Shown one piece after another: positions 573 through 5,044 of a stretch of DNA of 5,044 nt. Below the pieces are notes generated by a model. The model did no database searches. It was not told the DNA's origin and saw only the letters and a program-made list of their open reading frames with translations. The position numbers were made by a program, and so were the translations under genes. This stretch comes from Deltaproteobacteria bacterium. GTDB lineage: Bacteria; DRYD01. The stretch spans positions 1-5,044 of the forward strand of contig JAPYWL010000078.1 of NCBI GenBank assembly GCA_028276365.1. The letters are read 5' to 3'. Position 1 is the first letter of the stretch, and the number at the start of each line of letters is the position of its first letter.

Positions 573-662
573 CGGAGAGGGAGGGATTTGAACCCCCGGT
601 GTCGGGACTACCGACACTGCGGTTTTCAAGACCGCCGCCTTCGACCGCTCGGCCACCTCTCC
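573..662 (-). tRNA. tRNA-Ser (anticodon UGA)
   Basis: A 90-base cloverleaf on the minus strand. The acceptor stem is a perfect 7 bp (GGAGAGG at 662-656 with CCTCTCC at 580-574), with discriminator G at 573. The anticodon loop is CTTGAAA on a 5-bp stem GCGGT/ACCGC, giving anticodon TGA, which reads UCA and probably the other UCN codons. The long variable arm (GTGTCGG/CCGACAC around a 5-base loop) is the class II hallmark and, with discriminator G, identifies serine. The T arm is GGGGG-TTCAAAT-CCCTC with one G-U pair. CCA is not encoded, so it must be added by the nucleotidyltransferase. By my count it is about 65% G+C, against about a quarter in the flanks. Confidence 0.97.
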
Positions 663-880: not shown

Positions 881-912
881 AATTTTTAATAAAAATGTAT
901 AATAATATAAAT

Positions 913-920
913 GGAGGTGA
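913..920 (+). promoter_or_regulatory. Ribosome binding site that sets the dnaK start at 928
   Basis: GGAGGTGA matches the anti-Shine-Dalgarno end of 16S rRNA over 8 bases and lies 7 bases before ATG 928. This spacing is ideal and, together with the family's usual N-terminus (a few residues before GIDLGTTNS), decides the start against the upstream ATG at 895. Confidence 0.88.
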
Positions 921-927
921 TAATAAT

Positions 928-2736
928 ATGCCAAAAGCAGTAGGGATAGACTTAGGTACTACTAACAGTGTTATAGCTTATAAAGAAGCTGGGGGTAATG
1001 TAATCGTTATCCCTAACGCTGAAGGATCCAGATTGACTCCTTCAGTAGTTGCTTTTAAAGGTAATGAAATAATAGTAGGAGAACATGCTAAAAGACAGGC
1101 TATACTTAATCCTGAAAACACAGTTATATCTATTAAAAGAAAAATGGGATCTGATTATAAAGTAAAAATAGAAGGGAAAGAATATACCCCTGAACAAATC
1201 TCTGCCTTTATATTACAAAAACTAAAGAAAGATGCAGAAAGCTATTTAGGAGAACCTATTCAAGATGCAGTTATAACAGTACCTGCTTATTTTAATAATG
1301 CTCAAAGGGAAGCAACTAAAAACGCTGGTATTATTGCTGGTCTTAACGTATTAAGGATAATAAATGAACCAACTGCTGCAGCTTTAGCTTATGGTTTAGA
1401 TAAACAAGAACAAATATTAACAGTATTAGTCTTTGATTTAGGTGGAGGAACTTTTGACGTATCTATTCTTGAAATAGGACAAGGAGTATTCCAGGTAAAA
1501 GCTACTGCTGGAGATAATCATTTAGGTGGAGATGACTGGGATAAGAAAATTATGGATTGGATCTTAGAGGAATTTAAAAAGGAACATTCTATAGATTTAT
1601 CTAGTGAAAAAGCTGCTATGCAAAGAATTAGAGAAGCTGCTGAAAACGCTAAAAAAGAATTATCTATTAAAATGGAAACCGAAATCAATCTACCTTATAT
1701 ATACGCTGATGAAAAAGGACCTAAACATATTCAATTAAGATTAACTAGAAGTAGATTCGAGGAAATGTCTAAGGATTTAATGGCAAGATTAGAAGCTCCT
1801 TGTAAGAGAGTATTAGAAGATGCTAAATTAACCCCTGATAAAATTGATAGAATTTTACTAGTTGGTGGTTCTACCAGAATGCCAATGGTTCAGGAGTTTG
1901 TTAGAAAATTCTTTGGTAAAGAGCCATCAAAAGATATAAATCCTGATGAAGCAGTAGCAGTTGGTGCTGCTATTCAAGCTTCTATTATTAAAGGTGAAAC
2001 TAAGGATATAGTCTTAGTTGATGTTACTCCATTATCTTTAGGTGTTGAAGTATTAGGTGGTGCTGTTGAAGTATTGATCCCCAGAAATAGTGCTATACCT
2101 ATTAAGAAAAGTCAAGTATTTACCACTGCTGCTGACTTCCAAACTAATGTTGAAATTCACATACTCCAAGGTGAAAGACCTTTGGCTAAAGATAATATAT
2201 CCTTAGGTAGATTTATCTTATCTGATATTCCACCTGCTCCAAGAGGAGTACCTCAAATAGAAGTTACTTTTGAAATAGATGCTAATGGTATATTACAAGT
2301 TAGTGCTAAAGAAAAATCTACTGGTAAAGAACAATCTATTAAAATAACAGGAGCTACAAGATTATCTAAAGAAGAAATAGATAGAATGGTAAGAGAAGCT
2401 CAACAATATGCTGAACAAGATAGAAAGAAACGAGAACTTATTGAAGCTAGAAATAGATTAGATCAAATGATATATGCTGCTGAAAAAGCTATTAAAGATT
2501 ATCCTAATGTAGATTCTAATGTTAAATCAGAATTAGAAAATGTAATTAAGGAAGCAAAAGAGGTATTCCAAAAAGAAGAAGATTTAATAGCCATTAATAG
2601 AGTTATTGATAAATTACAAAGTACTTTATATAAATTTACATCAAGTGCTTATGCAGCTACTGGTGCTAGTACTGGTTCATCTTCTAACCCTAATCAAGGA
2701 CCTTCTAATGAACAAAATTATAAAATAGAAGACTAA
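928..2736 (+). CDS. dnaK: Chaperone protein DnaK (Hsp70)
   Basis: A complete cytoplasmic Hsp70 of 602 residues from ATG 928. It binds exposed hydrophobic segments in an ATP-driven cycle with DnaJ and GrpE. The ATPase domain shows GIDLGTTNS (6-14), catalytic Lys70, DLGGGTFD (170-177, Thr175 matching E. coli Thr199) and ILLVGGSTR. The interdomain linker VDVTPLSLG starts near residue 364. The substrate domain carries [18 protein letters not shown] and [18 protein letters not shown], followed by a helical lid. The segment of about 24 residues typical of Gram-negative DnaK is absent after IKRKMG, so it is of the Firmicutes/Thermotogae type. The tail (after about residue 575) is Ser/Gly/Asn/Gln-rich and ends NYKIED rather than the usual acidic EEVD-like end. 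An in-frame ATG at 895 would add 11 residues but fits the family poorly. The gene stands alone, is convergent with the mreC-like gene and has its own terminator. Confidence 0.98.
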
Positions 2737-2857: not shown

Positions 2858-3568
2858 TTATAATCTTCTTAATACTAAGGTATGTATTGAATTTTTTAAA
2901 TCTTTTTTTATTGTTATGTTTAAAGAATTACTATCATATATATATCCTATTGGTATTCCTGATGGTATAGAGTAATATCCATAGGTTAAAACTAAATAGG
3001 GTTTATTTATATTTATGATTTTTTTTTCGAAGGAATATATATCAATGGGTACAAAAACGAGATTGTTATTTAAATATTTGCTTAATCCCAAACAAGTAGT
3101 TTCTTTTATAATTGATATTATTTCAAAATCAGAACTTAATATATATTTAGCTTTAGATAATTTAGGATAAACTTGAATTATTATTCCAATTAAATTATCT
3201 TCATTTATTACTATATCTTTTATTTTTATACCGTTTTCAGAACCTTTATTTATATAGAAATATTCGTTTTCCTTTTGTATAATGTCTGCTAATGTAATTA
3301 GCTTTAAATTATTAATATTAATATCTGAGTTTTTTAGTATATTTGTAAGTTTTAATATGTCGTTATTATAAGCTAATTCACTTAAAATTTTGTTATAATT
3401 AAAAGTGAGTAAATTAATTAGTTTATCATTTTGAGAATCATTAGAAATTAATAATATAGAAAATAAATAAAGAGTAAATGAAAAATAATTCAATTTTATA
3501 GCAGTTATTTCATAAGCTAAAAAAAATATTAACAAAAAAAGAAAAATGTTGAAATTAGTTCTTTTCAT
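2858..3568 (-). CDS. mreC: MreC-like rod shape-determining protein (short, divergent)
   Basis: 236 residues from ATG 3568. MreC is a bitopic membrane protein that, with MreB, MreD, RodA and PBP2, organises the elongation machinery for side-wall peptidoglycan. Here a hydrophobic N-terminal segment (about 6-24, possibly continuing with 28-41) would anchor it. A short linker (about 45-80), where the dimerising coiled coil normally lies, follows. The rest matches the MreC beta domains: FYINKGSENGIKIKDIV (104-120), LIGIIIQVYPKLSKAKYI (126-143), a SDFEIISIIK strand, and near the end SGIPIGYI (203-210) before a final strand. At 236 residues it is shorter than most MreC (about 270-370), mainly in the coiled coil. 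No mreB or mreD is adjacent; its upstream neighbours are an FHA gene (48 bases away) and a Clp ATPase. No Shine-Dalgarno sequence precedes it. The family call rests on motifs recalled by eye; another periplasmic anchored protein is possible. Confidence 0.75.
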   Translation of the reverse strand: MKRTNFNIFLFLLIFFLAYEITAIKLNYFSFTLYLFSILLISNDSQNDKLINLLTFNYNKILSELAYNNDILKLTNILKNSDININNLKLITLADIIQKENEYFYINKGSENGIKIKDIVINEDNLIGIIIQVYPKLSKAKYILSSDFEIISIIKETTCLGLSKYLNNNLVFVPIDIYSFEKKIININKPYLVLTYGYYSIPSGIPIGYIYDSNSLNITIKKDLKNSIHTLVLRRL

Positions 3569-3616: not shown

Positions 3617-3925
3617 TTAGCTAATAAGAATAGTTGTATTACCGAGTTTAAGTATAGTATTTTTAGGTATATTAGTAGTATTATTTGGTTTTAATTTTTG
3701 TAGATTATTTTTAGTTACTATGAAAGTTCCATTTGTTGAGGCTAAATCCATTATAAAAAATTGATTATTATTAATACTTATTTTTGCATGTTTTCTAGAT
3801 ACTGTTAAGTCTAAAGGTAGAGCTAAATCATTAGATATATCCCTTCCAATATTTATATCGTACTCAAATTCAAAAGTATTGCCCTCATATGGTCCTGTTA
3901 ATATGGTTATTTTTAACTTATTCAT
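3617..3925 (-). CDS. Stand-alone FHA domain protein
   Basis: 102 residues from ATG 3925, almost entirely one forkhead-associated domain. This is a beta-sandwich that binds phosphothreonine peptides, usually made by Ser/Thr kinases. All hallmark residues are present: IGR (26-28), SND (31-33), SRKH (43-46, with Ser43 and His46 in the binding loops) and DLASTNGTF (60-68, Asn65 contacting the peptide backbone). There is no signal peptide, membrane segment or extra domain, so it should act as a cytoplasmic adaptor. Its start overlaps the end of the upstream Clp ATPase gene by 8 bases and it lacks a Shine-Dalgarno sequence. Translation is therefore probably coupled to the ATPase, implying matched amounts and perhaps a shared complex. 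A mreC-like gene follows. The phosphorylated partner cannot be told from the sequence, and no kinase is in the window. Confidence 0.93.
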   Translation of the reverse strand: MNKLKITILTGPYEGNTFEFEYDINIGRDISNDLALPLDLTVSRKHAKISINNNQFFIMDLASTNGTFIVTKNNLQKLKPNNTTNIPKNTILKLGNTTILIS

Positions 3926-5044
3926 AATGATTATTTATATTTTTTACAATAATTTTATTATCTTCAATATCCATTAGTAATTCGTTTTCTTTTAAATTGG
4001 GATTAAGTAGTATTTCCTCTGCTAAAATAGATAATATTTTACTTTGAATAAATCTTTTTATATTCCTTGCACCAAAAGATGGATCAAAAGCATTATCTAG
4101 TATATATTCTTTTAGTTTATCTGTAAATATTAATCTTCCACTATTTTCCTCTATTTTTTTACTTATCTCCTTTAATTCTAATTCTATTATCTTTATAACA
4201 CTTTCCTTATTTAGTGGTTTAAATACTATTACTTCATCTATTCTATTAAGTATTTCTGGTCTTAAGAATTTTAGAATTTCTGGGATTAATTTTTGTTTTA
4301 ATTCTTCATTAGTTATATTTGGATTTTCCTTAATTAAATTAAATATAAGATTAGAGCCTATATTAGAAGTCATAATAATAACAGTATCATAAAAAACTAA
4401 GGTTCTGCCTTTTGAATCCTTTAAATACCCTTCATCAAATACTTGTAAAAATATATCAAATACTTCAGGATGAGCTTTTTCTATTTCATCTAATAAGATA
4501 ACAGTATAAGGATTTTTTTTAATAGCTAAAGTTAAAATACCGTCTTTTTCATATCCTACATAACCTGGTGGTGCTCCCAGTAATTTTGCTACTTCATGCT
4601 TCTCTTTAAATTCTGACATATCCAATCTTATAATATCTTCACTGCCTGAAAAAATAGTTTCAGCTAGTACTTTTGCAAAATATGTTTTGCCTACACCTGT
4701 TGGTCCTAAGAATAGAAATACCCCATAAGGACGCTTAGAAATATTTAATCCTGCTTTAGCTATCTTTATTATTTTACTAACTTTTTCTATAGCTTCATCT
4801 TGTCCTATTATTTTGGTTTTTAATAATTCTTCTAAGTTAGCTATTTTATTGGTTTCCGATTGATCCATTTTAGAAATGGGGATTCCTGTTTGTTTGCTTA
4901 TTATTTCTTTTATATCTTCTAATTCTACTATGTTTTTATTTTTTTCAGTTTTAACGTATGTAGCAGCTTCGTCTATTAGATCTATTACCTTATCTGGTAA
5001 ATTTCTATTAGGTATATATCTTTGGGATAATTTTATTAAATTAA
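3918..5044 (-). CDS. Clp/Hsp100 family AAA+ ATPase, C-terminal part (end of D1 and full D2)
   Basis: The frame is open from the right edge (first full codon at 5042), so the ATG at 4868 is an internal methionine; 374 residues are visible. First comes the D1 lid, LSQRYIPNRNLPDKVIDLIDEA, then a short junction ending TGIPISKM. D2 follows, numbered here from Met 4868: GQDEAI (22-27), Walker A GPTGVGKT (55-62), pore loop GYVG (102-105), Walker B ILLDEIEKAHP (124-134), sensor 1 TSN (167-169), arginine finger region RPEILNRID (203-211) and sensor 2 GARNIKR (266-272). Such hexamers thread proteins through a central pore, for refolding (ClpB) or delivery to ClpP (ClpA, ClpC). The coiled-coil middle domain of ClpB/ClpC is absent, as in ClpA. 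However, the stretch between sensor 1 and RPE (172-202) has no IGF/IGL-type ClpP-docking tripeptide. Its stop overlaps the FHA gene. The N-domain, D1 core and promoter lie outside. Confidence 0.95.
   Translation of the reverse strand, partial: NLIKLSQRYIPNRNLPDKVIDLIDEAATYVKTEKNKNIVELEDIKEIISKQTGIPISKMDQSETNKIANLEELLKTKIIGQDEAIEKVSKIIKIAKAGLNISKRPYGVFLFLGPTGVGKTYFAKVLAETIFSGSEDIIRLDMSEFKEKHEVAKLLGAPPGYVGYEKDGILTLAIKKNPYTVILLDEIEKAHPEVFDIFLQVFDEGYLKDSKGRTLVFYDTVIIMTSNIGSNLIFNLIKENPNITNEELKQKLIPEILKFLRPEILNRIDEVIVFKPLNKESVIKIIELELKEISKKIEENSGRLIFTDKLKEYILDNAFDPSFGARNIKRFIQSKILSILAEEILLNPNLKENELLMDIEDNKIIVKNINNHYE

Follow-up and report, generated by a model that had tools for sequence, protein, structure and literature searches.

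A candidate ClpP-independent Hsp100 ATPase without middle domain and ClpP loop, encoded next to an FHA-fold protein

Hsp100 ATPases are classified by the presence of a middle domain serving Hsp70 or adaptors and of a loop serving ClpP. In type VI secretion, the Hsp100 protein ClpV co-occurs with TagH FHA proteins. ClpA is defined as having no middle domain and carrying an IGL/F loop, and for ClpB and Hsp104 the reverse holds (PMC5540906). ClpL and ClpG have no ClpP motif and act alone by means of special N domains, threading power being central to them (PMC11006417). ClpIb from Actinomycetota is a double-ring Hsp100 without LGF, distinct from both ClpB and ClpC (PMC10149685). In a study of E. 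coli ClpA, the pore-1 aromatic residue of AAA+ unfoldases is described as invariant, and D2 as the main motor with D1 in an auxiliary role (PMC9663308).

The window, i.e., the whole stretch of DNA analyzed here (5,044 nucleotides), corresponds to one entire contig; the draft genome to which it belongs measures 1.59 Mb in 124 contigs and is 87% complete. The following features are relevant.

3918 to 5042, minus strand: C-terminal half of an Hsp100 protein, 374 aa, start-less, comprising the end of the D1 lid, D2 large and D2 small; stop codon at 3918-3920
About 4867 to 4976, minus strand: lid-to-D2 junction of 26 residues, the site where ClpB and ClpC carry or follow a middle domain (counted from the translation)
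About 4560 to 4580, minus strand: D2 pore-1 loop PPGYVGY, intact (counted from the translation)
About 4245 to 4375, minus strand: stretch from sensor 1 (TSN) to NR of box VII, the expected site of the ClpP loop, motif-free by sequence comparison
3617 to 3925, minus strand: FHA-domain protein, 102 aa, with GR, SxxH and NGT kept; its start overlaps the Hsp100 end by 8 nt
2858 to 3568, minus strand: MreC-like membrane protein, 236 aa, the next gene downstream

The contig stops at 5044, which leaves the Hsp100 reading frame without its start; the missing 5' half was looked for in the rest of the same assembly and was not found there. As the window holds only the D2 half, D1 and the N domain were deduced from a sister gene which is 89% identical over the shared part. 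The sister gene lies at L039:4972-7113, its FHA gene at 7133-7441. Comparison of the window with the sister genome gave a dN of 0.059 and a dS of 0.93 for the Hsp100 gene; both this gene and the FHA gene are under strong purifying selection. The protein has the features of class I Hsp100/Clp proteins, namely an N domain, D1 and D2 AAA+ modules with Walker A and B, and a D2-small domain, the D1 part of this assignment being taken from orthologues. Elsewhere in the window, a tRNA-Ser gene (anticodon TGA, 573-662, minus strand) is located upstream of dnaK (895-2736, plus strand).

An earlier note on this DNA had claimed a junction of about 25 residues lacking the coiled coil of ClpB and ClpC. We measured 26 residues from the D1 lid (LPDKVIDLIDE) to TGIP; the identical measure gave 23 residues for a bacterial ClpA, 83-89 for ClpC and 145-153 for ClpB. 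The claimed lack of an [LIV]-G-[FL] motif for ClpP was confirmed as well: a hydrophobic-G-[FL] motif is absent from the sensor 1-to-box VII stretch of the window (TSNIGSNLIFNLIKENPNITNEELKQKLIPEILKFLRPEILNR), and neither this motif nor a middle domain was present in any orthologue with sequence there. Full-length orthologues contain no middle domain elsewhere in the protein either. In a comparison of 56 rows, the ClpP motif was found in those grouping with ClpA, ClpC or ClpE and in none of the ClpB, ClpK and ClpL rows; E. coli ClpB has LGV only, which is not the ClpP motif. An ordinary ClpA or ClpC whose loop has shifted was ruled out, as the motif occurs in no orthologue. Bacteroidales matches without a long middle domain, which looked alike at first, were dismissed because of their GF-type loop.

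Full-length orthologues of 702-713 aa are encoded in Calescibacteriaceae-like genomes of the same family. They start with a region of about 130 residues, predicted to be helical, which is followed by D1 and D2. This region gave no match to Clp_N, and the N domain of the family Hsp100s matched no Pfam family. Its structural model was weak (pLDDT 54), and a Foldseek search with it yielded no match at an E value of 0.001 or below. A model of the full-length protein aligned to chains of ClpC, ClpB and ClpA, chiefly across residues 137-713. The D1 pore-1 loop of the family reads GTSLRG, with SLRG in place of KYRG, versus GTKYRG or similar in most rows, and the pore-2 stretch is shortened to 14 residues as compared to 20-23 in other rows. 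The D1 ATPase motifs are retained and the GYVG/GYIG pore loop of D2 is kept in the orthologues. An order-level orthologue (L014 from genome G006, cut at a contig end) retains GTKYRG and a complete pore-2, and shows a weak Clp_N signal below the threshold. Since L014 keeps both pore elements, the grip of the D1 pore was probably lost within the Calescibacteriaceae-like family. ClpE rows have also lost the pore-1 tyrosine (GTGIRG), with pore-2 kept.

The family Hsp100s passed none of the curated NCBIfam cut-offs. Scores were 629-633 bits for the ClpA model TIGR02639 (cut-off 993), 694-709 bits for the ClpB model TIGR03346 (cut-off 1232) and 613-619 bits for the ClpV (TssH) model TIGR03345 (cut-off 885); the cut-offs for ClpK and ClpG were not passed either. 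With ClpA the family shares two AAA+ modules, an N domain and the missing middle domain; unlike ClpA, it has neither the IGL/F loop nor the KYR motif of the D1 pore. The absent ClpP motif is a feature of ClpB and Hsp104 too, and the D2 sequence is nearest to the ClpB model; however, ClpB inserts about 145-153 residues where only 26 are found here. The short middle domain and the GF-type loop of ClpC and ClpE are both missing. Among the described classes without LGF, ClpIb comes closest; ClpI proteins differ, however, in having intact pore motifs and a ClpC-like middle domain and in lacking a strongly conserved neighbor (PMC10149685). By the features checked, the parts are those of a putative ClpP-independent unfoldase and not those of ClpA, ClpB, ClpV or ClpI.

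ClpL and ClpG also combine a missing ClpP motif with unusual N domains. The family protein might thus be a stand-alone disaggregase whose divergent N domain binds aggregates with no need for Hsp70 or ClpP, the FHA protein being at most a regulator. Solo action of ClpL and ClpG through their special N domains (PMC11006417) and an N domain outside all Pfam families fit this reading. However, both ClpL and ClpG possess middle domains, intact D1 pore tyrosines and threading power, whereas the D1 grip is lost here; furthermore, an FHA partner is described for neither of them, and the conserved FHA gene would be left unexplained. We consider a stand-alone disaggregase unlikely.

Trees were calculated on D1+D2 core columns with loop columns removed; their rows included no ClpI sequences, ClpI being set apart by its published description (PMC10149685). 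The family proteins and L014 formed one clade (100/98) outside ClpA, ClpB, ClpC and ClpE, and hence not inside ordinary ClpA or ClpC. Together with the absence of a middle domain elsewhere in the protein, this grouping supports the suggestion of the earlier note that the protein is neither a typical disaggregase nor a typical protease subunit. In a D2-only tree the family grouped with the order-level orthologue (100); a D1-only tree showed no such grouping at starred support. Trees calculated before a second lineage (described below) was added gave no fixed sister group, and an AU test on the smaller tree did not reject a union with ClpA (p 0.40). This test result, the shared lack of a middle domain and the presence of ClpP in all seven related genomes speak for a ClpA-type protease subunit docking to ClpP via a changed loop. 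Such a subunit is nevertheless very improbable: no orthologue has the motif, the ClpA score stays below its cut-off (629-633 versus 993 bits), and the larger tree places the family with a second FHA-coupled clade.

The FHA gene lies directly downstream of the Hsp100 gene in five of five family genomes with sequence there; in the four genomes other than the window's, the spacing is either a 19-nt gap or an overlap of 4 or 11 nt. The outer flanks of the pair differ between the two genera. The MreC-like gene was left out of the module because it is a neighbor only in the genus of the window; it is the sole PF04085 match in its genome, and mreC of the sister genus lies away from the Hsp100-FHA pair. 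In the sister genus, two membrane proteins without a Pfam match at the usual threshold flank the pair (L040:7400-8833 and L041:3413-4990), the downstream one being coiled-coil-like and the upstream one comprising 512-526 aa.

The phosphothreonine-binding positions of the FHA domain (Arg of GR, Ser and His of SxxH, Asn of NG) are kept in the window and in four relatives. FHA genes are few, ranging from 0 to 3 per genome in seven related genomes, and Ser/Thr kinase-family matches were obtained in all seven. No FHA gene was detected in G006, a genome 73% complete in which the Hsp100 gene is cut at the contig end. In the open-access literature we found no FHA-Hsp100 pair outside type VI secretion, and no name for an FHA-coupled Hsp100 subfamily.

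Profile searches, first of 386 genomes and subsequently of the relatives of one match, revealed a second Hsp100 lineage. These proteins likewise lack the middle domain and the ClpP motif, and the aromatic residue of D1 pore-1 is kept. In a broader search the second type was found in 34 genomes of eight families, all in one group; seven other genomes passed the limit at lower scores, one of them Calescibacteriaceae-like. An FHA-fold gene directly follows the Hsp100 gene in 29 of the 30 second-lineage loci read, the two genes mostly overlapping by 4 nt; the contig of the remaining locus stops 137 nt further on. One FHA-fold gene lies 62 nt away by its chosen start, and the Hsp100 frame at that locus has an internal stop. 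The HMM used for reading the 30 loci was built from nine second-lineage and five family FHA proteins; the loci beyond those nine are therefore an independent test. Nine partners were checked closely, and seven of them exceeded the Pfam cut-off for Yop-YscD_cpl and four that for FHA. Yop-YscD_cpl is an FHA-like fold which belongs to an inner-membrane protein of a secretion system. SxxH and NG are lost in the second-lineage partners, most of which carry a C-terminal hydrophobic segment. Of eight wide second-lineage loci, four have a short ORF (about 110-130 aa) upstream of the pair and in the same orientation (L239:7377-7778, minus strand; L282, L284 and L286).

When the second lineage was included in the trees, it joined the family with a support of 95/77, which changed to 97/96 after three rows had been removed. 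The two FHA-coupled lineages likely form one clade, although this is not settled because the grouping was seen post hoc and the family rows are divergent and composition-biased. An AU test on the largest tree did not reject a union of the family with a third lineage instead (p 0.21).

This third lineage (families f174 and f261; L193 and L218-L235) comprises Hsp100s of 737-765 aa which also have neither a middle domain nor a ClpP loop. Their N domain looks canonical, the D1 pore reads KFRG, and they are placed near ClpB in the trees; none of the loci read contained an FHA-motif gene. The lineage is conserved in both families, whose complete genomes measure about 2 Mb. Additionally, two ATPases from Lactobacillus plasmids (L185:2995-4788 and L186:2995-4779; 594-597 aa) are devoid of N domain, middle domain and ClpP loop; both of their pore tyrosines are gone, and topoisomerase genes adjoin. 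The double absence as a unique trait was thus ruled out. Since the third lineage and the Lactobacillus ATPases share it, it has probably arisen more than once. The trait which sets the subfamily apart is the pairing with FHA: the window combines a missing middle domain and a missing ClpP motif with an FHA-fold gene directly downstream.

The earlier note had named the FHA protein as the obvious candidate partner. This proposal is supported by the conservation of the gene pair, mostly as overlapping genes, in two lineages, although adjacency of the Hsp100 and FHA genes is no proof of binding. Alternatively, the pair might be a chance or house-keeping operon, merely co-transcribed, with the Hsp100 as a decaying paralogue. 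The D1 pore loops lost in one family would agree with decay; purifying selection and an intact D2 would not, and chance hardly accounts for adjacency in two distant lineages whose other neighbors differ. We give this explanation almost no credence.

We favor, at about an even chance, an FHA-coupled Hsp100 subfamily acting as a ClpP-independent unfoldase which would be steered by its FHA partner. The protein would form a hexamer working independently of ClpP and of DnaK binding via a middle domain. D2, whose Walker motifs and GYVG loop are intact, would be the motor pulling the polypeptide. D1 may serve mainly in ring assembly and in regulation or signaling, because its pore grip is lost and its ATPase motifs are kept. 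The FHA protein may be a dedicated adaptor or receptor which recruits clients to the ring or connects the ring with a membrane site. FHA proteins of the Calescibacteriaceae-like genomes are probably phosphothreonine readers. As the FHA fold of the second lineage has lost the phosphothreonine residues, phospho-reading cannot be the function common to both lineages; steering in the second lineage would proceed via a mostly membrane-anchored FHA fold. It is possible, if somewhat short of probable, that the FHA-fold protein is an obligatory partner standing in for both middle domain and ClpP, and that threonine phosphorylation or, in the other lineage, a membrane anchor picks the targets.

The membrane features of the second lineage also suit a different role, in which the FHA-fold protein or its membrane complex is the substrate taken apart by a ClpV-like remodeller instead of its adaptor. 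An Hsp100 and an FHA protein belong to one system in type VI secretion, where TagH and ClpV occur together, and second-lineage partners match Yop-YscD_cpl, most of them with a C-terminal hydrophobic segment. ClpV, however, possesses a middle domain and is encoded within a large secretion cluster, whereas no secretion genes were recognized next to the Hsp100-FHA pair; moreover, the family reaches only 613-619 of the 885 bits set for ClpV. We regard remodelling of this kind as improbable.

With an FHA-steered unfoldase as the preferred reading, Hsp100s which lack both elements and have an FHA-fold neighbor in two distant bacterial groups suggest a little-known third control of unfolding. If the FHA protein reads phosphothreonine, Ser/Thr kinases would be linked to an unfoldase, in parallel to ClpC, which reads a phosphoarginine signal. 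With its small size, the pair offers a testable system.

Finally, the other chaperones and proteases were surveyed. The genome of the window encodes, apart from ClpP, a ClpC with an LGL loop located elsewhere, and two ORFs with a single module which are similar in size to ClpX or HslU. The point raised by the earlier note, whether clpP and a canonical clpB are present, was thus settled for clpP, whereas a ClpB-like gene was not found in this incomplete assembly. All six relatives have a ClpB-like gene (800-812 aa). As ClpP and ClpC are encoded elsewhere and the relatives have a ClpB-like gene, the odd Hsp100 is an extra machine and not a substitute. Four of the ClpB-like proteins (L146, L149, L138 and L139) lack a ClpP motif and carry a middle domain as long as that of ClpC (about 85-89 residues). 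The window's genome also encodes a single-module, D2-like Hsp100 ATPase of 708 aa (L003, contig C45, ORF from 229). Its N-terminal half is unrelated, with no family assigned, and D2-like relatives of 662 aa are present in genomes G003 and G005.
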